Source of the DNA: Siphonodentalium dalli
Taxonomy: Eukaryota; Mollusca; Scaphopoda; Gadilida; Siphonodentaliidae
Assembly: GCA_032622095.1 (NCBI GenBank)
Contig: CP136065.1
Location: forward strand, 149,301,577 to 149,365,576
DNA: 64,000 nt
Direction of reading: 5' to 3'
The position numbers and the translations under genes are program-made. The first letter of the stretch is position 1; every line of letters begins with the position of its first letter. Shown piece by piece: positions 25,207 through 63,234 of the stretch. The notes beneath the pieces are model-generated. The model saw only the letters and a list, made by a program, of their open reading frames with translations. It was not told the origin of the DNA and did no database searches.

Positions 25207-25343
25207 TCAATTCAACATTTATGAAAATATTGGTGTCCATAATTATTGGTCTCGGGCCTCTTCTACGAACCTTCAGTTGAAACATTTCTTGAAGGTAGTG
25301 TGGCACAAATCATCCTGTAAAAATATAGGGGATGTAGCGGGTG

Positions 25344-28832: not shown

Positions 28833-29052
28833 GCAGTAATGCCCTAAATAATCGACTCCTTTAATAACCACAGCAGTATTATTGGTAACTTTTCGGGGTT
28901 TAGTTGGAAAAATGGCTTGTTGACATTCATCGGAAAGCTCTCAGTGAGAGCTTTCCAATGAATGGCAACAAGCCATATATCCGACTAAATCCCGAAAAGT
29001 TACCTATAATTCTGCTGTGGTTAAGGAGTTGATTACTTAGGACATTACAGTA
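28833..29052. mobile_element. Mariner-like palindromic MITE
   Basis: Full-length foldback: CAGTAATGCCCTAAATAATC at the left and GATTACTTAGGACATTACAG at the right. The arms meet at GAAAGCTCTCAGTGAGAGC. The left flanking TA has become TG. Confidence 0.85.
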
Positions 29053-30108
29053 TCTACACTTATTATAAAATATTAGTTTTGCTCTGTTAACAGTACATTT
29101 CTATATTTATATACTGTCCACACGCTTATCTATATTTTTGCGCACATAAAATTTGTTTATATTCATCACTATTATACGAATGTATCCACAGAAGAACAAT
29201 AACTTTTATTACTGTACGCTCGCATCCTGGCATGTTCCGTTTCATGTGGACAGATATACCCTGGTATGCAACATGAGCTACATGCCCATATCAACAAAGA
29301 AATGAATTGCGTTGCGTTCATAATCTCTAACCAAATGTGTTGTTTGTGGGTGTAGTGCAGATTGTGAGACTATTACTCCGTCAGGTCTCAGTGGAGGCTT
29401 GTTGTGCATACATTGTGGAGACATCAACATTCAGTTTACGAACAGCAACTAAAAAGAGTCTATTCGGGAAAAATGACGTGGAAGGTAGAACAAAAGGGAC
29501 TAGCTTTTAATAGTGGGTAAGGGGTGGAAGGCCTTTATTTTACCAACTCTGACCCCTCCCAGTCCCCCTGTTAGTAATATTCCACAAATCTGATTGGATT
29601 ACAATATAACTATTGCCAACTATTAACCACTTCATTAATGTAACCCCATATGGTTATATTTCTGTTATCAGCATCTCATTATAAACTTAGGTTTAATTTC
29701 AACCAATATCCGACTGTAAACATATGTACCGTGTATTAGTCAGTCTATCTCTCTCATACTTTGTATCCAGGATGTAGTTGGTCATCAAGTACTCTTAAAT
29801 GTTAATCATACAATGCATAGCATGAGCTGTCATTCACCAACATGTAGATTATTTATCTCTTTTGTTAAATTTCTATTTGAATAGCGTTGGTGTCCTGTTA
29901 CTTCCTAAACTTGAAAACTTAAAACCACTTATATACACAGGCCTGAAATATAAGTCGTGCTAAAATGAACCTTCATTGAAGTTCATTCTTTGTGTTTTAT
30001 ATGATATATGAGTTTGAAACTTTTTTTTTTCACAGGGGAATCTAAATTCTTAGGATACAATTTTACACTTCCTGCTCAAAAAGGATGTCTTTACTTGTAC
30101 TAATCAGC
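29053..30108. other. No gene recognised
   Basis: AT-rich sequence upstream of the thymosin gene. No coding exon with a beta-thymosin signature was found on reading it. Confidence 0.5.
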
Positions 30109-30112
30109 CTAA

Positions 30113-30343
30113 CCCTTTCTATTCTTAATTGATTCTCCCATTCAGTTATAATTGTTTACATTGGAATGGTCTATTATTTATTTGTAGGGATGTCGGGTGA
30201 TATAAGCAGACAACAGATAATACAAGTACAAAAGGAGTTCTATTTATTGAGGGAAATGTTCAGATAATAAGTGAACTTATTTTCTGAACATTTCCTAAGG
30301 GATAACTACTCATCAATGAGTGTTTATATTAGTATAGAAAGGA
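30113..30343. mobile_element. piggyBac-like MITE, CCCTTTCTA family
   Basis: The left end CCCTTTCTATTCTTAATTG is preceded by CTAA (mutated TTAA). The right end TAGTATAGAAAGGA is followed by TTAA (30344-30347). The internal hairpin is TTCAGATAATAAGTGAAC / TTATTTTCTGAACATTTCC. Confidence 0.8.
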
Positions 30344-30360
30344 TTAACCAGTAATGTGAC

Positions 30361-30576
30361 TACAGTAAAGCTCTAAATAATCGACTCCTTAACCACAGTA
30401 GAATTATGGGTAATTTTCAGGATTTATTAGGAAATATGGCTTGTTGCCATTCATCGGAAAGCTCTCACCGAGAGCTTTCCGATGAATGGCAACAAGCCAT
30501 ATTTCCGACTAAATCCTGAAAAATTACCCATAATTCATCTGTGGTTAAGGAGTCGATTATTTAGGGCATTACTGTA
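30361..30576. mobile_element. Mariner-like palindromic MITE
   Basis: One of the best-preserved copies: TA then CAGTAAAGCTCTAAATAATC on the left, GGGCATTACTG then TA on the right. The arms pair through CATTCATCGGAAAGCTCTC and GAGAGCTTTCCGATGAATG. It sits about 100 bp upstream of the candidate thymosin promoter. Confidence 0.9.
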
Positions 30577-30680
30577 GTTGGGTATTGTTGAAACAGATTA
30601 TCTGCTTATAAAACTCAGGCCTGGCATTCTTGAAAATTGGCATTCAGCCAACCACAAATCACGACAGGACTCCGCTGCAG

Positions 30681-30688
30681 CCAATCAG
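30681..30688 (+). promoter_or_regulatory. Candidate CCAAT box
   Basis: CCAATCAG inside a locally GC-richer stretch (CTCCGCTGCAGCCAATCAGA), about 70 bp upstream of a favourable ATG (30752). Another AGCCAACCAC lies nearby, and TTTTATTATG at 30706-30715 could act as a weak TATA-like element. The assignment rests on motif and position only. Confidence 0.25.
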
Positions 30689-30751
30689 AAGATAGTCGCG
30701 TGGAATTTTATTATGAAAAGTGGTCGGTGACTTCATATTTTGAGGCAAGCC

Positions 30752-30764
30752 ATGAATAATGGTG
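30752..30764 (+). CDS. Candidate first coding exon of the thymosin gene
   Basis: The ATG in AGCCATGAAT has G at -3. It opens MNNG plus one base (G) before a possible donor, GTAAAA, at 30765. This phase-1 end joins exactly to the exon at 31026 (G+TA gives Val), yielding MNNGVICQEKQENELKG, and the intron would be 261 nt. The whole model then stays in frame to the terminal stop (279 codons). However, the 31026 exon already looks like an internal-type repeat, so additional upstream repeat exons are an equal possibility and this short exon may be chance. Confidence 0.3.
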
Positions 30765-31025
30765 GTAAAAAGGAGGATATTGGAATGTTTCAGACTATTG
30801 AATGTGTAGATGTTCACTGGATTCACTCAGACTGATTAACTCATCTGCTGACACCTTTGTGGTCTGCCACACCCAGCTAGTGTGACGGGGGGGTGGGGGG
30901 GGGGGGGTTAACAGGATGTTATTATAATTTATTGGATGCTTCGAACATTGTTGAAAGATATTATTTTTCCTGGAGACATCCATATATAGCATTAAAAATA
31001 TATACCCCTTTGTTCTATTATTCAG

Positions 31026-31139
31026 TAATATGCCAAGAAAAACAAGAAAATGAACTAAAAGGAGCAATTACAGATTTCAACAAAGGCAACTTGAAAAAAA
31101 CAGAAACGTCTGAAAAGAACCCACTTCCGCAATCGGACG
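31026..31139 (+). CDS. Thymosin exon, repeat 1
   Basis: Acceptor TTCTATTATTCAG, donor G|GTAATGA. It encodes VICQEKQENELKG, AITDFNKGN, LKKTETSEKNPLPQSD. The linker LKKTET is the canonical actin-contacting motif, so this is the most typical repeat of the gene. It starts with two bases that complete a codon begun in an upstream exon. Its N-terminal half already looks like the helix of an internal repeat. Confidence 0.92.
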
Positions 31140-34100
31140 GTAATGATGACATAATACTGACAACATTTGTTTATTTTAACAGTTATAATTGATCATTAGT
31201 TTATACATATACTTTTTTATGAGTCCACTAACTTTTCCTGACGCTTATTTGAAAAATTGCATGTTGCGAAAAAAAATTTGGAGGAATTATGACATTTGCA
31301 TGTTTTTGAATGTTTGTTTGCATTTAGTTTCTTATGATAAAATATATATGCATGACTTGGGATTATATGTTAAATTAGCTTTCTGCAAATAACTTACTAC
31401 AAACCAATTTTATTAACTTGCTTGCAATTGTATTCTTCTATCAATAATTTAATTGCACTTTTCATTGGCTTGTGCATTAGCTGTACATGTATCGGCTTAA
31501 ATTTTATTGGTGATTGTTCAAATATTATTCTACTTTTATCATGTCGAGTATTGGCAACATTTAGAGTCAATGATTTTTTTTTGTATTTTTGTTTCAGATG
31601 ACAAATTTTGTACAAAAATGGAGAATTTCTTTGTAAACGTTCAATTCGAGGACATCCTTTTTGACCGTTTATCAAAATTGACCTATATAGTAAATCCTCA
31701 AACTATTGACAAATCACATTTCAACGCTACCAATGCTGAAAGATGTGAATTATAATTTAAGATATATCATCCAATATTGCTCCATTATGTCAACACACAG
31801 CTGTAAATAAGTTCCATGTGGGAAAATCTTATGCAAAAGTAAATAAATGCCGAACCACATATTAAATTTTGGCCAACCAGATATGCTCAGACATGAAGCT
31901 GTTTAATCCTAAGTTGACATATCATGTTTAAGCCCAAAATCCAGTTTCAAGACTTACACATGATCAGTCTGTTTAATTCTATTATCAAGCCTTAAAATAG
32001 TGTCTATCATTTGCATAATGAGGTCCCCAGAGGGTGAATTTAGTGATGCTATCCCGTATAGTAGGCTAGCATCACCAAATTCACCCTCTGGAAACCTCAT
32101 TCTGCTCAGGCCTCAATGGCTATGGGAGACCTAGGATCAGATTGAAGTTTCCCAGTTAAAGTTGATGTTCACCCATAAGTCGCCTCACTTTATGTGCATT
32201 TTATCTACTGCAAATTAGCCATTAGGGGATATAGAAACTGAACAGAAGGGGGAAATGAATTTAAAACAATGTTAATTTGAGACTATAGATACTTTCCAGA
32301 AGATGAGGCCTGAGCAGAATGAGGTATCCAGAGGGTGAATTTGGTGATGCTAGCACACTGTGTGGGGTACCATCACTAAATTCACCCTCTGGGGACCTCA
32401 TTCTGCAAATGACACACACACTATTTCAAGGCTTGTATATTATATTAGTCTTAATAACACCATAGTTCTGAATATTAATTACATTTAAAAGTGAATTGTT
32501 TTCTGAATATTAGCCATCAAACAGGAGAAACATGAAAAAGAATTCCAGGATTCTATCTCACAATTCAACAAGGGAGGTCTGAAGCGTGCCCAAACTGAGG
32601 AAAAGAATCCTCTACCTCAAAGTGATGGTGAGACATCTAATAGGGAAATTGTTCCGCTATAAACACACTAGTAGTAACACATAAAGCTACAATACAGTGG
32701 TGCTTTTCTGGAATTGTAAATTGAGGGAATGTTTGCAATTTGTTGAGCTAACTAATTACATTACTAGTTGAGCATAAACAAGGGAAATAAGTTCAAATTG
32801 GCAAAATTCTTAAACACCTTGTTGTTTGAAGACGTACACTCATGAATCATGTCAAGTAGACTACTGAATTTGCTGAATTTGTCAACAAAAGTTTTGATGA
32901 TAAAGCTACTACATGTAGTATCAAATCAATTGTGATGCATGTACAGGGGAAATGTGACCAGTACTGCAGTTCAGTTATATACAATGTACATCCCAAAAAT
33001 ATTATCTCTAGTCAACTCTAATAAGTCTTAATTGAATGGAATGAAATTTGATATGTGGGTTTACAAGCACAAAATACAGGTCAATACCACATGCGTATTT
33101 TGCCTTGCCCTAGCGATGATCTTGTTAACACTATATGTATGCATATTGCTTGCATATTTAAGTTTACTAGTAATTGTTTCTGAATATTAGCCATCCAACA
33201 AGAGAAACATGAAAAAGAATTCCAAGATTCCATCTCACAATTCAACAAGGGAGGCCTGAAGCACGCCCAAACTGAGGAAAAGAATCCTCTACCTCAAAGT
33301 GATGGTGAGACATCTAATAGGGACATGTTACCACAATAAACTTAACAAAAAACAACGTGTTGCTTTGCATTGCAGTATTAAAAATTGCTAGAATCGTAAG
33401 TCATAGCTGATATGACAAAAACTGTTTGGTTGCTTTCTCTTGTGGAGCCATCACAGATTTATGAATTAAAGGCTAAATGAATAAGGATAATTTATTATTA
33501 TAGGGCTATCATGATAGCAGATCTTCCCTGACAATTGCTCTGGCTCAGAATTCAAAATCTACATCCAGCTATCAATTCTGTCTAATGCGGATGTTAACAC
33601 AAAGGAAAAGAATGCGCTCTACTCTAGACTATTGAGCCCAAAAGGCGTAAGCATCTGTTGTAGATAAATCCCATGTTTTTCTGGGGATGTGGAAAGATGT
33701 GCTATACTCTTCATAATTTGGATCACAATTTAGGATCGGGATGACTCGGATTCGGTACTTTACTACTCTGATTCTTGTATTATTTGTAATAAGACGAATG
33801 TTCTTTGTCGATGTCAGACAGAGAGACGTAAGCGTTGCATAAGTGTTACTGCCGATGTTGTTGGGAGATAACTTATAGTATTCAAGCCCGTACTCTAGTT
33901 TCAAGGCTTGCATGTTCTCAGTATGTTTAAAACTAGTGTTTTTAGTCTTTTTATCATCACAGTTCTGAATATATTAGCTACATACATGTACCTAAGTTAA
34001 TTGTTTCTGAATATTAGCCATCCAACAAGAGAAACACGAAAAACAGTTCAAGGATTCCATCTCACAATTCAACAAGGGAGGCCTGAAGCGTGCCCAAACT

Positions 34101-37100
34101 GAGGAAAAGAATCCTCTACCTCAAAGTGATGGTGAGACATCTAATAGAGAAATTGTTCCACTATAAACCTACCCACAATGCGATGGTGCTTTACCAAAAT
34201 ATTAAATTGAGGGCATGTACTCAATGCAGATCACTGTAAATTGCAAACACCATCACACATGGCTGATTCTATTGTTTACTGTTGTAAATATCTCAGATGT
34301 TATTGTGCCAGCATTGTGAGAGTGGGATAGACCCTCACATGCACAAATCCTGTTGTCGTCAGGAATGTGTGCACAAGTTATATGCAGGTGACAGTTCTGA
34401 TGTTGTCCTCCTCCATGGCCATATATTGAATATTTAATGTTAATATTTGTAAATATAACATGTACATGTTGATTTATGTTTTGCATGAAATATATATAGC
34501 TGATGCATGTTAAAAAGCTTCAAACATGTCTTTATGATTACAGCACAATACATCTTTTGACTGAGCAGCGCACCATTGCAGCTATTGATTTTGACCCACT
34601 TCACCACTATAATCGACTAAAGTTCATGTTCCTAACATGTTGACCTAGAGCTCCTAATAAATGTGATTTAAGTAACATTCAAGTAATTGATTAAATGTTT
34701 ATTATATGATAATTGTTTGAAAATGTCAGCTAATGGTCATATTCTGATCAGTAATCACTGTGTATTTTGTGGTCATCAAGGGGAATAACTCTGTTAATTT
34801 GCCAAGATAAATACCCATTTTGCATGATTATGGCATTCTGTATCATTCAAAAGGCTTTAGACACACATCCACCATAAAACATTAGAATTATATGTATACC
34901 TGTTGTGGAAAATTTTATGACCTCAAAGTTTTACTTTATTTATTACTTGTGGGTACTACACATTTTCAATATTGTCAACAAATCTTTCCTTTGTTAATTT
35001 GTCATATGGAAGTCTTTATGTAGTCTGTGTGATATAAAATTCCAAACCATGAGCTGATATATCACCAGTTTAGAGTCAACAAGTGGATTCACAAACATTT
35101 CATTTATGGTAGTTGCTGTTTTATACCCCGGTTATTCTATTTGTTCTTAGTATCTAACCTGTGATTGTGAGGTCCGTCCAACTTTCTTTTAGTGGAGTTA
35201 TTCCCTTTTTTTCAAATTAGAAATATCTTACAACCGTGTAGTTTTGTCCAATCTTGTATTACTTCATTTAATTGTTTCCTTAGTCCCATTAGGACAGTCG
35301 CTCCTGACACCTAGTTTAACTTAGTAATCAATTTGATTTCAATACTCAAAAGCATAAGTAAACCCTTCTATGACTGGAGCTTCCTGTAATTTTGTGAAAA
35401 CCCTGTGCCAATGCATTCTCTTATATATGTGTTTCCCATAGGGAGCCTCACATATATATGATAATACATTGGCCTAACTATATTTACCTTGACCTTGTAA
35501 GCCAGTGCATTATCTTATATATGCGAGGCTCCCTATGGGAGACTTGCATATGTAAGAGAATGCACTGGCATAGGGTCTTTAGTGCTGCACCACCGCATGA
35601 ATAGAAAGGATTAATACCTGTGAGATATTTCATCAAACTCTCTTGAAATTTTTTAATCAACTATCTACAGTGGCCGCCTAACATCACATGACTCTCCAAA
35701 TGTCATGTGACCAATTACCAATCAGCTCAAATTCTGCCTTAAAATAATTTTTATTTGACTATCTCACATTTTGTCAGGCACCAAACAGACATGGTTTGAC
35801 ATTTCAAAATGAGGCCTGACATGTCTTTTTATAACCCGAAATAATGCCAAGTGAAACTAACAATGATTTATTATCCCCCAATTATGATCCACTTCTCAAT
35901 TGTCACTTTTTAAAAATAATGCAAATCTGCCAACCCTGGCCACATTATCAGACATGCTTGCCAATTTCATACTCAAATCTAAGGTTATAGAAATCTAAAA
36001 ATTACTCTGATCCCGGTGCTGTTACTAGTACCATATAAGGGTATGCCTATCATTACAAACATGTGACTGTATAGAACACAGGACAGTAGTATTATATACA
36101 TCTGAAAAACCCAGATTTTGGCAAAACAAATAATTAAAATTTACTCTCCAATAGAATAAATTTCATTTAACAGAATACTATATCGATTTGTTTTGCAAAT
36201 ATCACATTACCAGTGACATTTTCCTTAAAAATACGTCAATATTTCAACCTGACATTATGTCAGACAGTTTCCAAGCAGAGCATGGCAACCTATAAACTTG
36301 AATCTATTCAATTGAATTTGGCGTCTGACAATTGTCTGTGTCAGACCACTTATTTGGAGCCTAACTAATGCTCTAAGTAATGAAATAAAATTGCTTATTA
36401 TGAATCCAGAGGAAGAAATCAACATTTTCCGTTGGTATATGATATGACTGTTGAATCAAAATTAGTTTGGTGCTACCTAGGGTCCTGCAAATATTCGATA
36501 TTCGATTCGAGATTCGATTCGAAAGTCAAATTCGATTCGAATTCGATTCGAAATTTCCAACTCGAAATTTCAAATATACACTGACAAAAAAGTAGGATGT
36601 TAACGGACAGGTAAACACATCGATCTTAGCTGTTTCTGTGCAATATTATTCCCAAAACTTATGAATATATGCAGCTTATATAATTCTTATTGTACATCGC
36701 GAAAGTTCGCATGCTATTACGTATAAGTATAGCCAGTAATTAGACACTATAAGACGACTAAATGCATCTGAATTCTAGCTTTGAACATGGTAGCCAAAAG
36801 CTTGGAGATCGCCGATGGACCGATGACGCACGTAAATTATAATAGCGATGAAACTGAGCAACGTTCAGTTTCATTTCCAAACAGTGGCGGCAGGAAGACG
36901 GCCTATTTGGCTATGCCGCTCCTGTACAATATAGTCATGTTTATTTCTGAATATTTCACTGTCAGCATTATGTTTGTAAATATTGTGCAAAAACAATCAA
37001 AAACCGCTAGCGTTATCCACCGACTATACGTCTCAGATTCCGCGTTATGTAATATCGCTGAGAATGCAAACAGCACGTGTTCCCGGCGTTGAAAAGTGCA

Positions 37101-40100
37101 CATGGGCGGTGTGTTCGTTTGAAGTTGACTTTCAGTGTCGGTGCGTTCCTTGAAACTTGACAATTTGTCGTCTGTTATTCATGTTTATTTTAAACATGAT
37201 ACAAGCTGCATGCAGTACTGGAACTTACACGTGTGATGAAAGCAACATGGTATATAAATCGCAAGCGTCTGGGACAACAACCCATCTAAGCATCCAGCAC
37301 TACATAAACAGGTTACCCTGGACTGTTGTTGCCTCTTCAAGTTTATAACAACAGGTGTTTCCCAGTGCCAATTTGCAACTGTGCATGTACATGCAAACTC
37401 TAAAAATTGCACGTGATTTTAATTCCGATAATCCGTTTTGTGGTTATATATTTAATCGTCGTGACGACGCATGTACGTTTTAATGCTTTTTTTTTCTCGA
37501 CAATTCTCAATTGAAGTTGATAATATCAGGAACGATCGGTTGATCGCCAAATAAGTTATGATGGAACTTCATGGAACTTCATAGAACGTTTCATAAATCG
37601 TCTAATAATTGACAATAAATGCCCAATTGAGAATGCAACACACAGGTATGATTCGATTCGAAATTCGATTCGATATTCGATTCGATTTCGTCGACTCGAT
37701 TCAATATTCGATTCGATCAAAATCTCCAATTCGCAGGACCCTAGTGCTACCATATCTGATTGATATATTGCAAGATGTCTTTCGTTGCAGTGCTTTATCT
37801 ACAAACTTAGTTACTGCTTATATGAGCAAAAGTGTAAGTGAAATTTAAGCTTTTTGATGAAAGCATATTTGGATTTTATATTTGCACATCTCCTAGCTCC
37901 TGTTAATTCCATACTGTCCAAATTCAGCAATGTAATTTCTACTAACATTCGTAAAAGATATCTACAAATTTATGAAATCCATAAACTAACAAAACCATAA
38001 AGCTTTGGGTTTTAAACATGATGGTCATTCAGACCTGCAAATCATCAATCTAGTTCTAAAAAGTTAAAGACATATTATGGACTTGTTCGGGTGTTTGAAA
38101 CTGATACGTTAGTACTCAGACGCTATGCCAACTGTGGGAATGTAGCATTCTACTAACATTGCCGAAAATCTCAAAGAAATCGACCATACCACTCCATAGA
38201 TATCATCGTCTGAACTACACATAATTATAAATATTTACATCTTGATTCGGGACGCAACTAACAGAAATTATTTCGCCACCGACATTCTAATTACTATTTA
38301 TTTAACATTTAATTAATATATAAGAATGACAGTGTGTGTGTGCTGGAAATATGGATTAATAGTCATCAAAATAACTACTTTGAGCAAGATTAATCTCCAT
38401 TTCTATTTGATCACCCAACCAGAGAATTTCATATCACTTTAATACTGTGTCAAGTTTTCAATGCGAGATACATCTGTGGAAATCCAAGTCAATGGTTGTA
38501 CATAGCTAATAATATGATGGGAAGATAATAGTCAGTGGTTATAAAATATAAAGATACATGTAATAGGTATATTTTGTTGCAGCATTCACATATTTGGTTA
38601 TGCCTCACTATGTACAGATGTCAATCTGTTATAATTTATTATTCTATATTCTAATAACACCATTGTGTCTGTAAACTAGCTGCATATATACTAATATATA
38701 ATATACTAATGTGTATTGTATGTATACAATTTCCATGTTTCTCAAACTAGCATAATTGTTCGAATACTAGTTGCATTTATAAGTCTGTTGTGTCTGAATA
38801 GCTGCATATTTTAAGTTAATTCTTTCTGAATACTAACTTCATGCATACCCAGTAAGCTATTTTTACTAGCCAGTTTATTATTTCTGAAATTTAGCTACAT
38901 ATATAGGCTATTTTTTTCTGAATACTAAATACATGCATAAGCTCATAAGCATTTTTCTGAATAATAGCCATCCAACAAGAGAAACAGGAAAAAGAATTCC
39001 AGAACTCCATCTCACATTTCAACAAGGGAGGCCTGAAGCGTGCCCAAACTGAGGAAAAGAATCCTCTGCCTCAAAGCGATGGTGAGAATTCTTAGGGAAA
39101 TTATTCCACTATACTCATACAATACAATTATTATACGCCTGGCCCTCCATCCGTCCGTCCGAGCAATCATCTCCTAGTAGGTTATTGGATCTCAATAAAA
39201 TTTGGTAAGCATCATAGACATCATGAGAACTTTCAGAGAAAGTATCCAATGATGTTACTCGCGTTTTCCATTCTAGGGTTATTATGCCCCCGACTTGAAG
39301 TCGGCGGGTATATAGTCGACGTCTCCGTCCGTACGTCCGTCCGTACAAACATTTTGCATTATTGTTCAGCAACCGCTGGACAGATTTTGCTGATATTTGG
39401 TATGGTGATAGAGCAGCATGGGGGAACAGCTACATGCATAGCGCGGGTTTCGTCCACCCATTTTCACCAGAGTTATGGCCCTTTTTTCAACTTAGAAAGT
39501 TTGAATTTTGTCCGTCCGTACAAACATTTTGCATTATTGTTCAGCAACCGCTGGGCAGATTTAGCTGATATTTGGTATGGTGATAGAGCAGCATGGGGGA
39601 ACAGCTACAAGCATAGCGCGGGTTTCGTCCACCCATTTTCACCAGAGTTATGGCCCTTTTTTTTTGTTGCGAATTTGGGTATGATCTGATGATTTTTGCC
39701 AGAGTTATGGCCCTTTTTTCAACTTAGAAAATTTGAATTTTCGCTTTTTGGGTTTCCGGATCGCTTCTTTTTGGGTTTTTAGTCAACATTTCTGTACGAA
39801 CTTCTTTTGGAATGGTCATATAGACCTCCTCGGATATCCGCAGTTTCGTCCATTCTTAATCCGAATTGCTACGGTCGGGGGCAAATGCCATGCGACAGCG
39901 TACCTCTTGTTAATTTTTGTTGATCTTGGAATTCTGATTTTTCGTCTGTTGGAGCAGATATCGGATCTCAATACAATTTTATGTTTGAATTCAGGAGGGC
40001 TTTCAGAGAAGTTATTGATTCCATTTTCTGTTTTAGAGCTAATCCTCTTTGTTCATCTGAAAATGTTTATTTTTCGTACCTCTGAGGAGATATCTCAGAC

Positions 40101-43100
40101 ATAGGTTATCCGATCTTTATGAAATTTTAAGGATGCTTGCCATCAGGAGGGTTTTGTTAGAATATCATTTCTTAATGTAGGGTCAGATAGAATATCATTT
40201 CTTAATGTACGGTCAGATAAGGTGAGGGGTTGAAATTTCATGCTTCCTGGTGTTAATAACAAGAGTTTTGCATTTAGTGTTGGGGAATGGTCGTCCAGTA
40301 TCAAATGTTGCGCGTTTCCTCATTTCAGTGGTGAGTGTTTAATATTTGTCATGTTTGATGCAATACTAACTATAGCATGGAGCATATTATTGTTTCTCAA
40401 AATAGACATGACTGCATGGCATCTTTCTATGAATTTCTATAAAATATGCCTATGTGATGTATATATCTTTAACTCCTCAGTTACATTCTTTTCTGAAGAA
40501 CTTAATAGTCTTGCTGTATTATTGAAAACTAATTGAAATTATAATTAATGAAAATATTCATTTATATATTTATATAATATTTAATGCATGTACATGTTTA
40601 TATTTTCCATATGTTACCCGAGAGCACCCCGGTGGACTTGTGGCTCAAAACTGCATTATTATTATTATTATTATTATTATTGACATGCTTATTTTGCATT
40701 TATATCTGATCTTGTTTTAGATAAATTTTCATACATAGTTTGTTAGTCACATTTTGAGAATTGAGAATAGTGTACTTATTATATGTGCAAAAAAATTGGG
40801 CACATGGACTATGGGATTTAATTAAGAGCATGCTTATACATGTATATATGTAATAAGAGTGATGACCAATGTTTTATAAGATTTCAGTGTTCATCATAAG
40901 CAGTTTAAATTCATAAATACTGTTACTTATCAACATAAAAAATGAGCTGAGAAAGTTTTAAAATAAAATATATAATAGGTGTCTGCATGCCAAAAATTAA
41001 AGGCATAGTTTATTATTGCAAATTGTTTGTTAGTTCTAGGAATACTGATTTACAGTTTAGAGCCATTATCATATCCTGGCCCTCATATAGACAATGATAT
41101 GCAATGTGGATCAGCTCAATTTCTTGCCGCATTTTGGCATCAGTGTTTAGAACTCATTTTGGCATCACTTTTTAGAAGTCATTTTTCATCTGTTTATTTG
41201 TTGTCTTGTATCTTCTGCTCATTTTCTAATTGTTTTTTATACAACAGCAATCCAAGCAGAAAAGCAGGAACAAGAGTTCAGGAAATCGATCGGTGATTTT
41301 GACAAAAACAAAATGAAACATTCAGATACACAACTCAAACAGTCTCTGCCTGATAAAGAAGGTATACCAATATACTCTCATTGAAAAATGTCATTGTCTT
41401 GCCTCAAATAAGGCTTATTGCTATCCGCTAGCTACTATTTGACTTGCCGGTTCTAATGCTCTGTACTTGTGGTATAGTTTTATTAGCTCACCTGAGACGT
41501 AGTCTCCGGTGGATCTCTGGTCATCACTCCTCGTCTGTCATCCGCCCATCCATCAACAATTCTGTAAACATCTTCTCCATAACCATAATTGGGTCACCAA
41601 GTCAAATATGGGTGGGGCCTGGAATTTAACTCTTTCCCACCATTAACCCAAGCAAAATCAATAAACCCACAAACTATAAACATAGTAATAGTATACCTAA
41701 TACTTATTACCTAAGTTATCATACTTAACAAACAACTTACAAGAACTCATATCGACAAACGCTATACTAAGATAGTTAGGCTCCCCTTGCTAAACTCTAA
41801 TCTTTCCCACCATGGTAATGCTGAAAACAACTTCTTCTCAAGATCCATTAAGCTGATTTAGCTTATATTTGGTCTGGAGGTTCCTTGTGTGACTGGGATT
41901 CAAATTTGTTCAAATTGGGTCACCGGGTCAATTATGTGTGGAGCCAGCGACATAAATTTTTCCCGCTATAATAATTCTTAAAACAATTCTTCTCATGACC
42001 GTTGATCATAAGAGGTTTAGGACATATAATTTTTAACTTTAAACCATTTTGATTTAAAAAAAAACAAACAACAATTTAAATAATACATTTTTTTAAATTG
42101 AATTTTTGAACGTTTTTTTTAGATTTAACTCCTTGCTCTAGCTATGTTCTTGGTTATAAATACTTGTTTTAAATGATTTTGACAAGTACTGACTGTTGTA
42201 GTCTTCAAAATCACAGTCTCACCAGTCTCCTCAACTCCACGGTCCTTGACTCTTGCTTAGTTCACATCCAATTTCTCAGGAAATTCATTATCCTAAATTT
42301 AAAAATATTTAATCTGACCTCGTATGAAGGTTATTATCATATACCTTACTGGTACATCTGATAAAAAAAGTTATTGTAGCAATTTCAAAAAAATGTCTTG
42401 CAAGTGCAAATGACAGAATTCAGGGGAGAGAAATCGGGCTATTTTCCTGTTACCAAAACACAAGAGTAGGGTCTCCACTGAATAGGAATATCATGTTACG
42501 TGTCAAAATTTTTCTCTTTTTTTGTGAACCTCCCCAGTTTTGTAAAATAATTAAACCTTCAAACCAGTAATGTCCCATTTAACACAGGCTACACTGTCTG
42601 TTATGCCCCCCCCCCCCCCCCATATACTTATTTTTCAATTTTGTCAGACCCCCCCCCCCCCCCTACAACCCGATATATCATGCACTGCTAACTTATCAAC
42701 CGTTAATCCTTCAAACCTGCCATCTTCTTCGTGGGAGATTTTGGTCAGCAACGTTTTATTTCAATTGAATATTGCACTTTTCGTAGGCCTTCATTCCTGC
42801 ATATATATTGTCATTTTGATGTTTTTAAAATCCTTACAAAAATGTCGCAAGTAGTGTTATTGGCCATTTCTCCATATGTCACTAAACTGGAGCAAAGTAA
42901 GATCATTGGAGTGTTGCGAGCTGTAATTAGGTGTTTCATGCATGCAGTAAAGTTACTTTGGTAGTTTCTGTACTGTGACTACCGAGAATGATGGAAGTTT
43001 TTGTTAATGGATTGATTCTGTCAAGACTGTTTAAGTAAAAATTGTCATTGCTTCAAATTCACTTCTTATTGAATAGATTGAGGATCATCATATAATGATC

Positions 43101-46100
43101 AGCGCATATAAACAAAAATACAAACACAATTTGAGGCCCAAAGTATGACATATATCAGCGACAATAAACTTGATGTTTCTGATTACATCAGTGCTCAAAT
43201 TTATCTATACAGATAGAACTTGAGTTTTTGCAATTTGTTTTCAGCATTAAAGCAGGAAAAGACTGAACTAGAACTGAAGGCATCTATTGGCCATTTCAAC
43301 AGAGGCTCACTAAAGAAAACAGAAGTTCAAGAAAAGAATCCATTGCCATCCAAAGAAGGTTGGTGCCTCACGATAGAAATGTTAAATTGTGATCTGTGTG
43401 TATTGAACATGCACCATATCTACGAGTTGAGTGTTGTTCAGTTTCCACTGCCAGACAGGCATTAAATCCAGAATCCAGGATGAGTGTAAAGTTTGTTCAA
43501 GTTGGTATGCTAATTAGGATTAGAAATACCAAGCAAAGTAAATATTATTCTGCATAAAAGGGCTCAAGCCTTCTAAATGGGTTCATGCAATATATTGAGT
43601 TCGGTAGCCTAGTGGTTAGAGTGTCCAACTTGTAATGGTGTTGACGCATCGGCATGAGTTCGCGCCCTCTGGTGGACCATCGTTTCTGCAACAGTGGCTT
43701 GGTCGGACTAAGCGGTGTGTGTGTGTACTGTAGACCTGCATGCTGTTAAAATCTCGCACCATTTTGTGACCTTTGGGCAAGGTCACTTAAACTGTTCGCT
43801 TCGTGGTACAAAGACGAGAAATAGGGACCTGGTTGTTGGATAAGCGTAAGGCTGGTACTGGAGATAAGCGCTATATAAGCACCATTATAAATAACATAAA
43901 AGTCTGTATTGAGTTTGTTGTTTCTAGTATTTTCATTATTAATTACTCTCCAATAATGAGATTTTGCATGTTAAAACCATTGTTATGTAAACATTAGTAT
44001 TACAGTGGCATTACCAATAAAAGTCCAATAAACTATCAAAAGTTTAATAAAAATTTGATGGTAAACATTGGAAAAGGTCAAAATATTGAATATTATTCTG
44101 AATATCATATTTAGACTGAAATATTTTAACTTACTACACGATTAGCAAAGTTTGTTGACAAATCACTGTAACAGTTTTGTTTACATAGTATGGTTTCATC
44201 ATGTGAAATTTCGTTATTGGAGAACTATCAATAATGAATATAGTTATCTATTTTGCCATGTTTTTCTTAGTGGTGATGTTTTTACGAACTTTTATATTTT
44301 TGCACATTTACCAATTGCAAGTGCCTTGGGTCCCTTTAAGAGTCCCTTAAAATATCAAAATAAATTGGTAGAACCTTCTATATCAAACAAGATAGTCTTT
44401 TTCAGGTGGTTATTCTTGACTTAAGGCCAAAACAAACTTCATATGGATCTTCGTTCGAGCTACAGTATTGACACTCACATTTTGTTTGCCCTATTAACCA
44501 TGTTATTTTATGCACTATTTAAATCAGAAGCATAAAATGTTTTGTAAACATTAGCTTGGAACCCGGGTTACATCTGTAAATCCTCTCCATTCCAGAGTAT
44601 ATAGGTTCAGCAAATGAAGTGTATAAGCTATGCCCTGATGATTCCAATGAGACAACTGCCTCAAACACAGGTTTTTACATGCATTGCTTGATCAGATATT
44701 TGTCAAACATCTATTCCTTGATGCACACTGTCACAATTATTCCAGTCAGGTGTCTATCCACACATAATCCCTAATTGGGCATTGTTGCATGGCTCTTATC
44801 TATATGGTTTCCATGAATTTCCTGATTGTTAGCAGGCCTCAATATATGGTGCTGGACATTTTCAGAATGAGGTCCCAAGAGAGTGAATTTGGTGACGCTA
44901 CCACGCGCACCAGGCTAGCGTTATCAAATTCATCCTCTGATGACCTCATTCTGCTATGGGAGACTTAGACCTGATTTAAGTTCCCATATAGAGAAGATGG
45001 TTATGTGCCTCCATTGGGCACACATGTTTGAATTATGAATTGTATAATTTGCCAATTTCGAAGATATACAGAAACTAAATTAAAAATCAAATAGAAACTT
45101 TCTAAAGAAACTGAAAAAAACTTGTTAATTTGATAATAAAGATACCGGTACTTTCCTGAAAGATGAGGTCTAAGCAGAATGAGGTCCCCATGGGGTCAAT
45201 TTAGTGATACTAGCTCTCTGTGCTGGGTAGCCTCATTAAATTCGCCCTCTGGGGACCTCATTCTGCAAAGTCCAGCACTATATTTTGAGGCCTGATTGTT
45301 AGGTTACTGAGCATCTCCAAGATAGAAGTTGCATCAAACGGGATCATCCGCTTCGTTTTATTTGTTATTGACCAAATCAATGTTTTGTCAATTGATGAAA
45401 ACTGGGAATGGTTCTGGGTAACAAAATTATCTAAGCCATGCGACATTGTCCATTTCTGCCACACTTAAGGACACAGAAGTGTATTGGTCACACACACCCT
45501 CACACACACACACACACCGAATACCTGCAAAATGATGTTACATTTTTTTTATCACCTCTCCTTCCTCAACCCAAAACATTGGCCTTCATCTCACACCTTC
45601 TATCGCTGTATCTCCAATTCTTCTCATAAAACCCCAGAAGATGTGAAACTTGAGATTTGAACATTTGTGGTTGCAGTGATTGACATTGTTGTGTATATAT
45701 TGTATTCCAATATTAGGAGACTTTAATATTATTATGATGGTGGTGTTTCAAATGAATGTATGCATTTCCATTTAATGATTCACTGGACAAGTTTCATTTA
45801 CCTTTAGGATCTTACATATTGAAAAGTTTAAATTATGAAGAGCATTGTTGCATCAGTGGAATTACAAACTGATTCAGTCACTGAAATTAAATCCATTGAT
45901 TGTTATCTGAATAAATAGAATTGATATTAATCATGAAATTCCTTCTTCAAATTTGAAACAAGTCAGTTTTGTCCCTCTGGACATAAATCTCAGCTATGCG
46001 TTAATGGTTTCGCCATCATGAATGCTTTCTAATGAGGGACTAATGATGTTGTTTGAGTTTTCTATTCTCGATTTATCCTTCTTTGATTTAATATCTGGAA

Positions 46101-46422
46101 ATTTGTTTTTTGTCCGTCTGCACAAATATCATTCCGGAAGGACAGAACAACCACAAAAACACAAAAAGTTATCGTTTACTGTTGTTTCGGTTTCCAATCA
46201 ATTAAGCATATCATTTGGCAAGATACATTTGCAAGGACTTGTAAATCCTTCTGTCTCTTTATTTCTGCTTTATGTATAGATGTTTTTTCTTTGAATACAG
46301 ACTGTTTAAATCAAATTGTCTGAACAGTATGTGCCGTTAAATTCTGAAATTTGTGTTTGTTCTGTTATTATGATCTCCATTTGTATTTTGCAGATATCCA
46401 GAAAGAGAAGGAGTCATCATAG
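31026..46422 (+). CDS. Multi-repeat beta-thymosin (ciboulot-like) actin-binding protein, spliced gene
   Basis: Join: 31026-31139, 32514-32627, 33191-33304, 34018-34131, 38968-39081, 41248-41361, 43245-43358, 46394-46422. Seven 114-nt exons each encode one 38-residue beta-thymosin/WH2-type repeat. Every boundary is phase 1, with AG acceptors and GT donors; the last exon ends with TAG. Beta-thymosin repeats bind actin monomers through an N-terminal helix, an LKKTET-type linker and a C-terminal segment; multi-repeat forms are known in insects (ciboulot), nematodes and molluscs and regulate cytoplasmic actin assembly. Linkers here are LKKTET (repeat 1), LKRAQT (2, 4, 5), LKHAQT (3), MKHSDT (6) and LKKTEV (7). 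The 5' end is unresolved: 30752-30764 is a candidate start, and more repeats may lie upstream. Confidence 0.9.
31140..31985 (+). other. Intron 1, left part
   Basis: Intron sequence between repeats 1 and 2, continuing beyond the hAT-like MITE at 31986-32435. Open frames here (for example 31507-31755) are AT-rich and lack splice context. Confidence 0.6.
31986..32435. mobile_element. hAT-like MITE with two hairpins, CAGGCCTC family
   Basis: Flanked by TCTATTAT (31978-31985) and TATATTAT (32436-32443), an 8-bp target duplication with one mismatch. The termini are CAAGCCTTAAAATAG and CTATTTCAAGGCTTG. Inside are two separate palindromes built from AATGAGGTCCCCAGAGGGTG and CACCCTCTGG..CCTCATT, separated by about 200 bp of spacer. 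It lies in thymosin intron 1. It is non-coding. Siblings are at 44833-45294 and 62973-63226. Confidence 0.9.
32514..32627 (+). CDS. Thymosin exon, repeat 2
   Basis: Acceptor CTGAATATTAG, donor G|GTGAGA. It encodes AIKQEKHEKEFQDSISQ, FNKGGLKRAQTEEKNPLPQSD. The linker is LKRAQT instead of LKKTET. It differs from the repeat-3 exon at 7 of 114 positions by hand count; flanking intron bases (GTGAGACATCTAATAGGGA) are shared with exons 3 and 4, so the duplicated unit is larger than the exon. Confidence 0.92.
33191..33304 (+). CDS. Thymosin exon, repeat 3
   Basis: Acceptor TTTCTGAATATTAG, donor G|GTGAGA. It encodes AIQQEKHEKEFQDSISQ, FNKGGLKHAQTEEKNPLPQSD. The linker is LKHAQT: histidine replaces a basic Arg/Lys found at this position in the other repeats. 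It starts 677 bp after the repeat-2 exon. Confidence 0.92.
34018..34131 (+). CDS. Thymosin exon, repeat 4
   Basis: Acceptor TTTCTGAATATTAG, donor G|GTGAGA. It encodes AIQQEKHEKQFKDSISQ, FNKGGLKRAQTEEKNPLPQSD. It differs from repeat 3 mainly at EKQFK (EKEFQ elsewhere). It is followed by a 4.8-kb intron enlarged by a pearl-like remnant and by piggyBac-like and hAT-like insertions. Confidence 0.92.
34132..35120 (+). other. Intron 4, left part
   Basis: No further thymosin-type exon was recognised between repeats 4 and 5. The sequence is AT-rich. Confidence 0.55.
35121..35315 (+). mobile_element. Internally deleted TATACCCC pearl-like element
   Basis: Head TTATACCCCGG, one monomer remnant (GTGATTGTGAGGTCCGTCC, AGTGGAGTTATTCCCTTTTT) and tail TAGTCCCATTAGGACAGTC, GACACCTAGTT. 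It lacks the (TCCG)n block of the copy at 15688-16469. Confidence 0.65.
35363..35610. mobile_element. piggyBac-like foldback MITE, CCCTTCCATGACTGG family
   Basis: CCCTTCTATGACTGGAGCT at the left; right end CGCATGAATAGAAAGGA followed by TTAA (35611-35614); the left site is TAAA. Internal inverted pairs use GCATTCTCTTATATATG and CATATGTAAGAGAATGC. It is the uninterrupted sibling of 8421-9015 and lies in thymosin intron 4. Confidence 0.75.
35615..36469 (+). other. Intron 4, middle part
   Basis: No coding exon or known repeat family was recognised. The sequence is AT-rich. Confidence 0.5.
36478..37743. mobile_element. hAT-like element, TAGGGYCCTGC/ATTCGA family
   Basis: A perfect 8-bp target duplication, GTGCTACC (36470-36477 and 37744-37751). 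The ends are TAGGGTCCTGCAAATATTCG and ATTCGCAGGACCCTA. Subterminal regions of about 100 bp are arrays of ATTCGATTCGA in both orientations. The interior has two plus-strand open stretches (36787-37092 and about 37172-37345); the second contains SGTTTHLSIQHYINRLP, faintly like the end of a BED zinc finger of hAT transposases, but catalytic motifs are absent. It lies in thymosin intron 4 and is about 475 bp longer than its sibling at 14130-14920. Confidence 0.9.
38690..38967 (+). repeat. Ladder of acceptor-like motifs upstream of repeat 5
   Basis: TTCTGAATANTA/TAGC-like motifs recur about every 30-60 bp: about 38792 (TGTCTGAATAGCTGCAT), 38824 (TTTCTGAATACTAACTTCAT), 38881 (TTTCTGAAATTTAGCTAC), 38910 (TTTCTGAATACTAAATACAT) and 38953 (TTTCTGAATAATAG, the used acceptor). 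Similar pairs precede repeats 2 and 4 (about 32467 and 33963). They look like tandem duplications of the intron's branch-point/acceptor region that accompanied exon amplification. Confidence 0.6.
38968..39081 (+). CDS. Thymosin exon, repeat 5
   Basis: Acceptor TTTCTGAATAATAG, donor G|GTGAGA. It encodes AIQQEKQEKEFQNSISH, FNKGGLKRAQTEEKNPLPQSD. It is the last member of the recently amplified exon set: the DNA still matches exons 2-4 closely, with QEKQ and ISHF changes that resemble the outer repeats 1 and 7. Confidence 0.92.
39128..40150 (+). mobile_element. Pearl-like element with TTATACGCCTGG head, interrupted
   Basis: The head ATTATACGCCTGGCCCTCC is followed by ATCCGTCCGTCCGAGC and monomer pieces with ATTGGATCTCAATAAAATTT, GGAGATATCTCAGACATAGG and TTTCAGAGAAG. 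It was split by the TATGCCCCCGAC element at 39283-39912, showing pearl-in-pearl nesting in thymosin intron 5. The right end is uncertain. Confidence 0.6.
39283..39912 (+). mobile_element. Pearl-like element, TATGCCCCCGAC family
   Basis: Same head (TATGCCCCCGACTTGAAGT), (TCCG)-rich block, monomers about 175 bp apart (GTACAAACATTTTGCATT at 39346 and 39521) and tail CAGCGTACCTCTTGTTA as at 10297-11366. It has fewer monomers. Open frames across it are translations of the repeat. Confidence 0.8.
40159..40218. repeat. 30-bp tandem duplication
   Basis: Two adjacent units beginning AGAATATCATTTCTTAATGT, differing at one base (GTAGGG versus GTACGG). Confidence 0.95.
40655..40680. repeat. (ATT)n microsatellite, possible retroposon tail
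   Basis: Preceded by CCGAGAGCACCCCGGTGGAC and TTGTGGC, which resembles the 3' end of invertebrate LINE/SINE elements that terminate in ATT repeats. No coding remnant was found upstream. Confidence 0.5.
41248..41361 (+). CDS. Thymosin exon, repeat 6 (divergent)
   Basis: Acceptor TTTTTTATACAACAG, donor G|GTATAC. It encodes AIQAEKQEQEFRKSIGD, FDKNKMKHSDTQLKQSLPDKE. The linker reads MKHSDT: Lys 2 and Thr 6 of the LKKTET motif are kept but the rest is altered, and the EKNPLP segment has become LKQSLP. Weaker or different actin contact is plausible. Its length and phase match the other repeats exactly. Confidence 0.9.
41483..42020 (+). mobile_element. Pearl-like element, AGCTCACC family
   Basis: The head TTAGCTCACCTGAGACG is partly self-complementary, followed by CTCCTCGTCTGTCATCC and monomers with AATTGGGTCACC and CAACTTCTTCTCAAGA. 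This head type is abundant in bivalve genomes from general knowledge. Inverted relatives are at 57730-58395 and 58796-59312. The right end is approximate. Confidence 0.6.
42606..42663. repeat. Two poly(C) tracts
   Basis: C runs at 42606-42621 and 42649-42663 within intron 6, separated by AT-rich sequence. Confidence 0.9.
43245..43358 (+). CDS. Thymosin exon, repeat 7
   Basis: Acceptor TTTGTTTTCAG, donor G|GTTGGT. It encodes ALKQEKTELELKASIGH, FNRGSLKKTEVQEKNPLPSKE. The linker LKKTEV is near-canonical, and LPSKE matches the usual C-terminus of single beta-thymosins. Repeats 1 and 7 are therefore the conventional members bracketing the derived set 2-6. Confidence 0.92.
43598..43898 (+). mobile_element. 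tRNA-derived SINE
   Basis: TAGCCTAGTGG at 43605-43615 fits the pol III A-box consensus at every position; AGTTCGCGCCC at 43657-43667 is a degenerate B box about 50 bp on. The body has TTTGGGCAAGGTCACTTAA and GGTACTGGAGATAAGC. The tail is GCGCTATATAAGCACC then AT-rich. This is the layout of invertebrate tRNA-head SINEs with LINE-like tails. It lies in intron 7, sense to the gene. Confidence 0.8.
44596..44670 (+). CDS. Candidate cassette exon of the thymosin gene
   Basis: A strong pyrimidine-rich acceptor (TCCTCTCCATTCCAG) and a usable though weak donor (CACAG|GTTTTT) bound 75 nt. The segment is open in the required phase (2 + 72 + 1), so inclusion keeps the frame between repeat 7 and the terminal exon. 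It would add EYIGSANEVYKLCPDD, SNETTASNT, a polar non-thymosin linker. It was found by splice-site and phase logic only; chance is possible. Confidence 0.35.
44833..45294. mobile_element. hAT-like MITE with two hairpins, CAGGCCTC family
   Basis: A perfect 8-bp target duplication, ATTGTTAG (44825-44832 and 45295-45302). The termini are CAGGCCTCAATATATGG and TATATTTTGAGGCCTG. Two internal palindromes use AGAATGAGGTCCC and GACCTCATTCTGC, separated by a spacer, as at 31986-32435. It lies in thymosin intron 7. Confidence 0.92.
45303..46393 (+). other. Intron 7, right part
   Basis: AT-rich, with a CA-rich microsatellite at about 45489-45518. No further exon was recognised apart from the terminal one. 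Confidence 0.55.
46394..46422 (+). CDS. Thymosin terminal coding exon
   Basis: Acceptor TTTGTATTTTGCAG. With the G from repeat 7 it encodes DIQKEKESS then TAG. The IQKEKES tail resembles the end of single-unit beta-thymosins (TIEQEK..), which supports this as the true C-terminus. The frame is preserved from the preceding exon, or from the candidate cassette exon. Confidence 0.88.
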
Positions 46423-46685
46423 GAGGCAACGAAAGAACCACAACATTGCCATCAGATTGTTAATAGTCATAGCTTTATGCTACTATAACCATATATTTCT
46501 TGCATACCACTGTACATACTCAACCATGGTGCTTCAGTCATTGCTCTTCCGCATTAAACTGTGCCTTCCTTGAGCTGCTGAATACAGTTGAATTAATCAT
46601 TAACTCCATCTTGAAAACTAACCACGTTTACCAGAAGTTGTTCATATGTACCCAGTGGAAATAAATATACACAAACTACATTGGT
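46423..46685 (+). other. Thymosin 3' UTR (predicted)
   Basis: Begins after the TAG stop and is expected to end shortly after AATAAA at 46660-46665. A weaker ATTAAA lies at 46553-46558. An overlapping 85-codon frame in this stretch is a shadow. Confidence 0.6.
46660..46665 (+). terminator. Poly(A) signal AATAAA
   Basis: Canonical hexamer 238 bp after the thymosin stop codon. Confidence 0.6.
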
Positions 46686-47290
46686 ATCGAAAATCTATCT
46701 TGCACGATTACTTGTACTAATTAAAAATGCATCCCACCATTCCAAATGTACATAACACTCCAAAATTCCAAATCCGAATTGATGAGATTTATTCAGTCAG
46801 TTTAAAAACTGAAAAATATCAGTTTCACTCTGATCTATCAATAACTCGAACAAGATGTATCATGTGATTTCAAATTCTGCAATTTCAAGGTCACATGTTA
46901 AACTTGTACATTTGGTAAATATGGGTTGGTTTAATGTTTTTGAGGTTACAACAATAATTATTAGGCCATTAAAATTTATATCTGTGTTCTCTCGCAATTA
47001 GATCTCAATTTTGAGATAAGGGAGGGGGGGGGGGGGGGGGGGGCTATTTATTGTTATACTTTTTTTTCAAAATCTGGAAAACATACACCAGAAACCCCAA
47101 AATATTCATTTTCGTTGTTCAAATCCAATATATCTATTATAGAAAATATTGAAAACAATGTTTGACAAGGTCTTAAGGTTTTCATTGACGAGGGAGGTGA
47201 CGGAGAACACAGATTTATTATTTAATTGGCCTTAACTTTGCAAATTTTGGGTGTTTTGAGTTGATTTTATTCTGCAGTTATTTGTTGATC
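46686..47290. other. No gene recognised; G20 tract
   Basis: Contains a G homopolymer at 47024-47043. No coding exon is seen. Confidence 0.5.
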
Positions 47291-47502
47291 TACAGTAATG
47301 CCCTAACTAATCAACTCCTTAACCACAGCAGAATTATGGGTAATTTTTCAGGATTTAGTCGGAAATATGGCTTGCTACCATTCATCGGAAAGCTCTCACT
47401 GAGAGCTTTCCGATGAATGGCAACAAGCCATATTTCCGACTAAATCCTGAAAAATTACCCATAATTCTGCTGTGGTTAAGGATTATTTAGGACATTACTG
47501 TA
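47291..47502. mobile_element. Mariner-like palindromic MITE
   Basis: TA-CAGTAATGCCCTAACTAATC at the left and GGACATTACTG-TA at the right. The arms are nearly perfect through GAAAGCTCTCACTGAGAGCTTTC. A few bases (GAGTC) are deleted near the right end. Confidence 0.9.
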
Positions 47503-49325
47503 TCACATATACTGCTGAGAGAAACCAGTTTCACATTTACTTTATGTAAGACTGGTCCATATTTAATGCCCAAGCTAAATAGATTACACATATTAAGATC
47601 ATTTTGAATTACAAGCACAGAACAGTATTAGTTGAGGCCATGTCGACAACTTGAAATGTAATGCATGTGCTATGTTTACAACATAACCTATTTCATGTGC
47701 ATCTTTGCAGAAATGTTCCAGATATGAACATCTTGAATGGAAAAAAATTATAATGTTAGTACAGTTTTACTGAAGGAGTTTCTAAATGTCTATACTTTTC
47801 CATTTACAAATAAAACTAATAATGGTATTTCTGTGCACAGTAATACAATGGTTGTCATATACTTTGTATCTTGTAGTACTTTTAAGCACACTGATTGCTT
47901 GCAACTTTTTTGAATTTGGTTTATTAACAACTTTTTGAGTTTGTTGGTGGAAAATAAATCATTGTTTGAAGGGACCAATATTTTCTTCTTTCCTGTTTTT
48001 GTATATATTTTATTTTCTCTTTGTATTGTCTTATTGGCTATTCCTGTCAAAACTTTAGAATCGCGATCACTACATTTTTATTTCACACCAATTCATGGAG
48101 AATTACTGTTACAAAACCTTACACATTTGAATCATCTATACAGATTGAGTCCATCTCATCTGCATACCAGAAAGACTGACATTCTTTATTCATTCCATTG
48201 TTCTCTTGGTAAATGGTACATTGTTCTCTTATTTCAACTTTGTTTCTGGACCAGGCATACACACAATCAAGCTATTTATTTTTGTTGCATAATCCCCATG
48301 GAAGTGATATTACATCTGATAACTCTGTGGAGGAATGCAATACATAATTTAAAAGCAAAGCATTTGGAGTACTATATAATATTTACAAAACCTTTGTCCT
48401 ATAGTGTGTAATAAGATAGTTTCACACATATGTTGAGTTAACGTTGGTCATTTATCACATTCCAGCATACAACTCCTGTTCTTTTAGAAATTCACCACTT
48501 CAGATATACACAATGTTAACTTGTTCACATATGAAGCATTATATTATTAAATTTGTAGTTAGTACTGCTCTGGCATATGCTCTTTGCATTGTTATTGTAG
48601 GAATGACCTTGTTATAAAGTCGTACTGTTGGAAAAGTCAGATGTCCATTGAAACATTTTCAGTTCATTTTTCAAATGCCCGAGTCATTAACACAGGACTA
48701 ATTAAAGGTAGCTTGTTTCATGTACTTTCTATTCTACATATAATTGTAGTTTAAATGTTAAATACTATGTACATAACTAATACATGAAGAAAACCTTATT
48801 TTCTATTTCATAATGTTTGAGGTCAAAAGTAGCCATTTTGTATCAGGCATTCCATGGTTGATATGTTTTATTGCTAAGTTAGTAAAATTTAAATAAGAAC
48901 TTTACAGATGGTAATTTTGAAAATGGTCATTGGACACCTCTCTTGTTGAAAGTTCAGATGACCACGATTCAATCATTAGTGGAGGAATCGGGTCCGACAT
49001 AAATTGTGCCTAGTCTGTTCACACGATTGCGGTGTCATCGCATATGAGGATATCGCAAGCCATTTTTAATCATGTGATTGACTACCCTATGATCTTTCTA
49101 TCTATGATTTTTGTGAACACACTACTGCAATTCTATCAAAAGTGGAAGTAACCAAGGATACACAATTTCGCAGCTGAAATCAACAGTCTTTGATATACAT
49201 TTTATACTCGCAATCTTGTCGTGAGCATGCACAGTCCAACTACCGGTTACTACCCATGACAGTAAACTTCCCACTTACGATTGAGTCGCAGTCATCTGAA
49301 CGTTCACTTAAGCCACACCAATATT
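47503..49325. other. No recognised gene; one long AT-rich open frame
   Basis: A 158-codon open frame (47935-48411, starting at TTG) is rich in Phe, Leu, Ile and Tyr, as expected when a T-rich strand is translated. It has no recognised domain or splice context, and is not called as a gene. Confidence 0.45.
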
Positions 49326-49674
49326 ATAGCCTGGTTTATGAACAGTTTGGTGGGACAAAAGTAGATGCAGGAGGGGAAAATAATAAAAAAAGTATTCATC
49401 AATACAAGAATCTACAAACAGCGAAACTACGGATGAATTTCAGAATTTCCTTGTTAAAAAGTTATGTTCTGTTAGACTTTTATAAGTAAACTGAGGTATT
49501 TCTTCCCATAAATAGTTGAAATAATGGGGGGAAAGGAGAAAGCCAAAGAAAAGACTCTGCCATCAACTATTTTCTTACTATTTTAGTCCACATTATAAAC
49601 CAATCAATAATTTTTTTTATGTTGGTGCACATTATGGGAAAAAAGTTGCAGGAAGGGTTTATAAACCAGGCTAT
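49326..49674. mobile_element. Possible foldback with ATAGCCTGGTTTAT ends
   Basis: ATAGCCTGGTTTATGAAC on the left and GTTTATAAACCAGGCTAT on the right, 349 bp end to end. No target duplication is evident. A 99-codon frame overlaps the left end and is not recognised. Confidence 0.45.
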
Positions 49675-63226: not shown

Positions 63227-63234
63227 TTAACACT

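Follow-up and report, generated by a model that had tools for sequence, protein, structure and literature searches.

A multi-repeat beta-thymosin gene with seven 114-nt repeat exons in the scaphopod Siphonodentalium dalli

The beta-thymosin gene Pa-THY of the cockroach Periplaneta americana consists of exons of 139, 114, 114, 114, 114 and 26 base pairs (bp), and its isoforms contain 3–5 domains (PMC6801668). Here we describe a gene of this design in the scaphopod mollusc Siphonodentalium dalli, located in a stretch of 64,000 nucleotides (nt) that was analysed as a whole (contig CP136065.1, positions 149,301,577 to 149,365,576 of the forward strand; hereafter the window). In the termite Hodotermopsis sjostedti, exons 2–5 of HsjCib are each 114 bp long and three to five domains arise via skipping (PMC2896938), while the silkworm gene has exons of 145, 114, 114 and 140 bp and one skipped form (PMC4608725). 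The crayfish proteins Pl-beta-thymosin1–5 carry 1–5 domains, which is attributed to splicing of one inferred gene (PMC3614969). Among molluscs, CSP24 and CSP29 of the sea slug Hermissenda (via PMC2896938) are likewise multi-repeat beta-thymosins, but with only 4 and 5 domains, whereas thymosin beta-4 of Pinctada fucata (PMC12108687) is a single unit of 41 residues. The invertebrate range is given as 2 to 27 domains (PMC6801668), the upper value belonging to Hydra thypedin (named in PMC3614969 and PMC6801668), which is a large beta-thymosin array too and, by its cited title, a pedin precursor.

The scaphopod gene resembles Pa-THY in its 114-nt repeat exons, in its LKH/R- and M-type motifs, in the frame neutrality of these exons (which are skipped in the cockroach) and in a very short last exon, of 26 bp in Pa-THY and 29 coding nt here. 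It differs in having seven such exons rather than four, where Pa-THY reaches at most five domains, and in that no first exon was found in the window. With HsjCib it shares 114-bp exons and splice sites within the domain, but HsjCib has a maximum of five domains against at least seven here; the crayfish proteins, whose domain number depends on exon choice, likewise have both LKKT and LKHA motif types but again stop at five. The gene design is therefore already known, and what is new is the high repeat count. An earlier prediction, made from the letters of this DNA, had placed seven repeats at the high end for invertebrates. This holds with respect to the bilaterians in the cited papers, for which five is the maximum and seven or eight is high; it is no record given Hydra, with far more units, and skipped 114-bp exons had been published before. 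No beta-thymosin with 6–26 domains was found among the open-access papers listed in our searches, which is weak evidence of absence.

Repeat exons and family membership

The multi-repeat beta-thymosin gene with its seven repeat exons is confirmed as real. The array spans 31026–46422 on the + strand and comprises seven internal exons and a 29-nt terminal coding exon: R1 (31026–31139, LKKTET type), R2 (32514–32627, LKRAQT type), R3 (33191–33304, LKHAQT type), R4 (34018–34131, LKRAQT type), R5 (38968–39081, LKRAQT type), R6 (41248–41361, MKHSDT, the most divergent and with the weakest donor) and R7 (43245–43358, LKKTEV type). As originally predicted, all seven repeat exons are exactly 114 nt long and open in phase 1-1, and thus frame-neutral; each is preceded by AG and followed by GT, so that AG stands at 8/8 acceptors and GT at 7/7 donors. 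The terminal exon (46394–46422, acceptor tctccatttgtattttgcag) reads DIQKEKESS followed by TAG at 46420–46422 and supplies the rest of the last unit's C-terminal helix. The combination of 114-bp unit exons with a short last coding exon is that of multimeric beta-thymosin genes. Both the count of at least seven units and the 3′ end at 46422 were predicted exactly. The predicted product of 279 residues was not: the joined exons read 275 residues, with the first codon completed by an assumed G of the preceding exon, and the first coding exon is absent from the earlier model. A putative 3′ untranslated region covers 46423–46665, reaching up to ATTAAA at 46553 or AATAAA at 46660; these are motif positions only, out of four A[AT]TAAA matches in 46423–47600 (46553, 46660, 46720 and 46968).

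When the window's GT dinucleotides are ranked by simple consensus scoring, the donors of R2–R5 are among the best 1%, and those of R7, R1 and R6 rank at 3.4%, 4.4% and 9.2%, respectively. The length of 114 nt is by itself unspecific, as the + strand of the window contains 31 open AG-114-GT stretches. A loose motif filter keeps eight of these, namely the seven repeats and the unrelated 9608–9721, and keeps none on the minus strand. The case for the repeat exons thus rests on homology and not on their length.

Against the joined protein, Pfam PF01290 (Thymosin, beta-4 family) matches at E 2e-68 and 226.3 bits (cut-off 24.8) in seven stretches, which bears out the predicted gene family. Single units joined to the start of the following exon were tried for R1, R3, R6 and R7 of the seven (R7 with the terminal exon), and all four match PF01290 on their own (E 1.3e-11, 8.3e-10, 3.9e-9 and 1.5e-14, respectively). 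A profile made from the seven repeats recovers those seven in a six-frame search of the window (E 3.5e-27 to 1.7e-22), a partly circular result, and gives no eighth repeat, the next best match reaching only E 1.6. Among chains of solved structure, thymosin beta-4 (Tb4), thymosin beta-9 (Tb9) and Tb4 chimeras come closest in sequence, although these matches are weak (6 distinct sequences at E ≤1, the best at 0.013). The WH2 domain is related to beta-thymosin, and a WH2 match in the joined protein (E 1.1e-7, above its cut-off) fits this kinship. Matches to DicB, Anthrax-tox_M and DUF2749 fell under their curated cut-offs and were set aside as chance.

In the thymosin register, each exon starts with the C-terminal helix of the preceding unit and ends just past the LP motif of its own. 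The predicted layout of one repeat per exon needs tempering: what an exon contains is the end of one unit and most of the next, not a whole unit. Since the splice junctions lie inside the unit and are all in one phase, the omission of 114-nt exons in any combination would leave fewer but whole units.

Taking these features together, we consider it very probable that the array forms the 3′ portion of a ciboulot/actobindin-type multi-repeat beta-thymosin gene coding for a multivalent G-actin binder whose valency can be changed by splicing. Most likely, to judge by sequence, the product would be a flexible chain that binds several G-actins, with its valency set by exon skipping. An upstream first coding exon would give the start codon and, as in the cockroach, a first unit, for eight in all. 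The protein would then be a chain, largely disordered while free of actin, in which each unit, made of an N-terminal helix, an LKKTET-like linker and a C-terminal helix, clasps one actin monomer, and the chain would serve to buffer or carry G-actin multivalently. Its valency would be set through splicing by the number of 114-nt exons included, and would have changed over evolution through the duplication of exons (R2–R5).

Residue conservation largely fits this reading. In the Tb4 register, I9, F12, K18, K25, L28, P29, E37 and K38 are kept in 7/7 units and L17, T22, E24 and P27 in 6/7, the departures being M17, L24 and S27 in R6 and V22 in R7. Among the positions that PMC3614969 lists as conserved between crayfish and vertebrates (numbering shifted by one to the Tb4 register here), F12, L17-K18, T22, E24, K25, L28, P29 and E37-K38 are accordingly present in all seven units except for M17/L24 and V22. 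Several points weigh against the reading. K31-E32, where the C-terminal helix begins, is likewise given as conserved in that paper but is found only in R6 and R7 (2/7), while R1–R5 have S31-D32; this is a departure at the level of positions, and the Pfam match is not lost. R1 has an intact LKKTET core, but T20 and E21 are replaced by A and Q in R2–R5 (LK(R/H)AQT), R7 has LKKTEV through its V22, and R6, which besides M17, L24 and S27 has the weakest donor, reads MKHSDT. Finally, 31 kilobases (kb) upstream of the array hold no detectable first coding exon, though the alignment search used there separates known units from background.

Copying among R2–R5

The prediction of an evolving valency is borne out in that the copy number grew fairly recently. 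In all six pairs among R2–R5, 104–107 of 114 nt and 33–36 of 38 residues are identical (107/114 nt for R2/R3 and for R4/R3, 105/114 for R5/R4), whereas R1, R6 and R7 share 15–24 of 38 residues with any other unit. R2–R5 are thus recent copies of one another, and R1, R6 and R7 are older. The ratio of nonsynonymous to synonymous divergence (dN/dS) among R2–R5 is 0.08–0.27 and below 1 in 6/6 pairs, albeit from few changes (7–10 per pair), and synonymous divergence (dS) is 0.21–0.34. These values point to purifying selection on R2–R5.

The exons R2–R5 are far more alike than their introns. By blastn, the common tract extends, depending on the pair, from 14–76 nt before the exon to 32–40 nt after it; in global alignments, positions −20 to −1 show 17–20 matches of 18–20, and +1 to +50 show 36–39 of 46–50. 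Beyond these flanks the likeness drops toward background (mean 56%, maximum 92% for 50-nt background pairs). Between introns 2 and 3 the cores score no higher than shuffled sequence (17, shuffle maximum 25), and 3 of 15 intron-core pairs exceed ten shuffles (i1/i3, 34 versus 22; i3/i4a, 23 versus 22; i3/i4b, 27 versus 22). When the intron 2 core was copied in simulation with 25% divergence, the score was at least 125 in 20/20 runs; at 35% divergence the copy could be missed. With a dS of 0.21–0.34, alike exons and short flanks next to unlike intron cores fit short-tract copying or conversion somewhat better than duplication of whole exon-intron units.

Three observations count against short-tract copying: R2 and R4 share 44 nt at 77% about 60–105 nt downstream of R2 (E 2e-4), their upstream introns match over 50 nt at 76% (E 7e-5), and the flank divergence from +1 to +50, about 20–25%, is near dS. 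The weak intron similarity of R2 and R4 is what a faded whole-intron duplication would leave, which lowers the odds of short-tract copying; replacement of the introns by insertions and deletions may also have occurred. The full proposition, that of a beta-thymosin of at least eight units in which R2–R5 multiplied through short-tract copying of exons or through gene conversion (the exon plus tens of flank bases), therefore seems to us quite unlikely. If it were true, valency would evolve fast, might differ from one individual to another and might be tuned through skipping. A near-identical unit repeated four times in one gene and flanked by divergent units offers a natural series for studying valency at constant unit type, and it suggests that genes of such design can still gain repeats.

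The upstream part of the gene and alternative readings

R1 opens halfway through a unit, and its frame lacks an ATG between the preceding stop, at 30878, and the exon; hence an upstream exon is needed. The array would be the 3′ part of a gene whose first coding exon lies outside the present model, and this exon probably carries another unit, giving eight in all. The six-frame search with our own profile detected neither a first exon nor an eighth repeat in 1–31025. Local alignment of Tb4, Tb9, a ciboulot/Tb4 chimera and R1–R7 over the same region gave best scores of 34 on the + strand and 36 on the minus strand, which served as a control; these are background, as known whole units score 66–98 against outside references. 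Pfam read-through of the + strand in the upstream 31 kb, in three frames and with 10002–10999 excepted, showed no thymosin unit, and its matches to Ovate (E 0.027) and Prot_ATP_ID_OB_C (E 0.25) were both under the cut-offs. As a control, read-through of 31000–41000 returned Thymosin in 3/3 frames, in five stretches that equal the five repeats there, although one frame fell below the curated cut-off (21.8 versus 24.8 bits), together with a weak CCHC_ZFPM2 match (E 0.077). All of these upstream searches could miss a first exon that is interrupted by an intron or has diverged strongly. The first exon may be located outside the window, consist of separate pieces, or no longer resemble the repeats.

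Elsewhere, Pfam gave no family at E ≤0.5 on the minus strand of 1–30001 or on both strands of about 49000–64000; its coverage excludes 41001–48998 on the + strand (the joined exons aside) and 30002–48998 on the minus strand. An Rfam scan and a tRNA scan, the latter at bacterial settings, were empty. As an alternative last exon after R1 we considered 31598–31755, which has a strong acceptor, a 52-codon phase-1 frame and, downstream, poly(A)-like motifs that include AATAAA at 31842. It was rejected as within chance: 17 of the 168 strong acceptors in the window precede a phase-1 frame of at least 50 codons, a count that includes this candidate, R1 and R7. A filter for further phase 1-1 exons in the introns returned four overlapping frames, all in 39277–39678 and inside a repeat that also occurs at 10.3–11.4 kb. 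This filter is too strict as a test, since it lists 0/7 of the real repeat exons, and the introns may well contain additional exons of non-thymosin type.

The failure to detect a first exon or repeat upstream, by profile, by alignment and by Pfam read-through (in the parts it covered), is what would be expected if the array were a 5′-truncated duplicate, or a decaying copy of a complete gene elsewhere, that lacks its own promoter and first exon. We regard this as very unlikely. All seven frames are open, AG and GT are in place at every acceptor and donor, silent changes are in excess among the recent copies R2–R5, and the terminal exon, the stop and poly(A)-like motifs are all there. Moreover, no Pfam family exceeds its cut-off on either strand in the scanned parts of the upstream 31 kb, so that a very long first intron is possible. 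A different question is whether the seven-unit product is made at all. R2–R5 could be mutually exclusive or mostly skipped, with about three to five units present at once and the seven-unit form rare or never made. They share the three features by which mutually exclusive exons are predicted, namely similar length, conserved splice sites and frame, and homology, and neighbouring non-exclusive exons with such features occur in only 6 of 1705 Drosophila X-chromosome genes (PMC3228551); related genes also often skip exons (PMC2896938, PMC6801668, PMC3614969). However, ciboulot, the fly beta-thymosin, is itself one of those six exceptions in the Drosophila set, and the longest isoform includes all repeat exons in the cockroach (THY3, PMC6801668), the termite (PMC2896938) and the silkworm (BmTHY1, PMC4608725). 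R1–R7 can moreover be joined in any number without a frame shift. We consider such exclusion or skipping unlikely, though by no means negligible.

That the gene is coding but its product promotes assembly, in a ciboulot-like and profilin-like manner, rather than sequestering actin, is a substantial possibility, at slightly less than even odds. Position 5 is L or F in 7/7 units, versus D in Tb4. At position 14, in contrast, all seven units have K or R, and sequestering Tb4 has K; Didry et al. reportedly found that the residue at this position switches function. The first unit, furthermore, was not found in the window. Published multimeric beta-thymosins are mostly described as assembly-promoting (PMC2896938, PMC6801668), but for some termite isoforms a sequestering role was judged from the sequence (PMC2896938).

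Repeats and a putative transposon in the window

The intron between R4 and R5 contains a 1266-bp insertion (36478–37743). Its ends, TAGGGTCCTGC/GCAGGACCCTA, are inverted and it is flanked on either side by the 8-bp direct repeat GTGCTACC, features that we take to be those of a hAT-type DNA transposon. Two copies of a family of palindromic elements of about 190–225 bp flank the thymosin array; members are found at 30359–30578, 47290–47514, 28834–29052, 25020–25207 and 16909–17134, with a 92-bp half at 14002–14093, and are 82–93% alike to the copy at 30359–30578. An inverted-repeat element (GAGGTCCCCAGAGGGTGAATT...) is located in thymosin intron 1 (31986–32115 and 32304–32436), in intron 7 (44833–44955 and 45164–45296) and near the end of the window (62966–63250). 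The dispersed repeat at 10293–11371 and 39279–39916 contains tandem units, each about 175 bp long, as well as long open frames, without a Pfam match where scanned. Dense arrays of tandem units of about 156–165 bp, apparently in both orientations, occupy 51706–55835.

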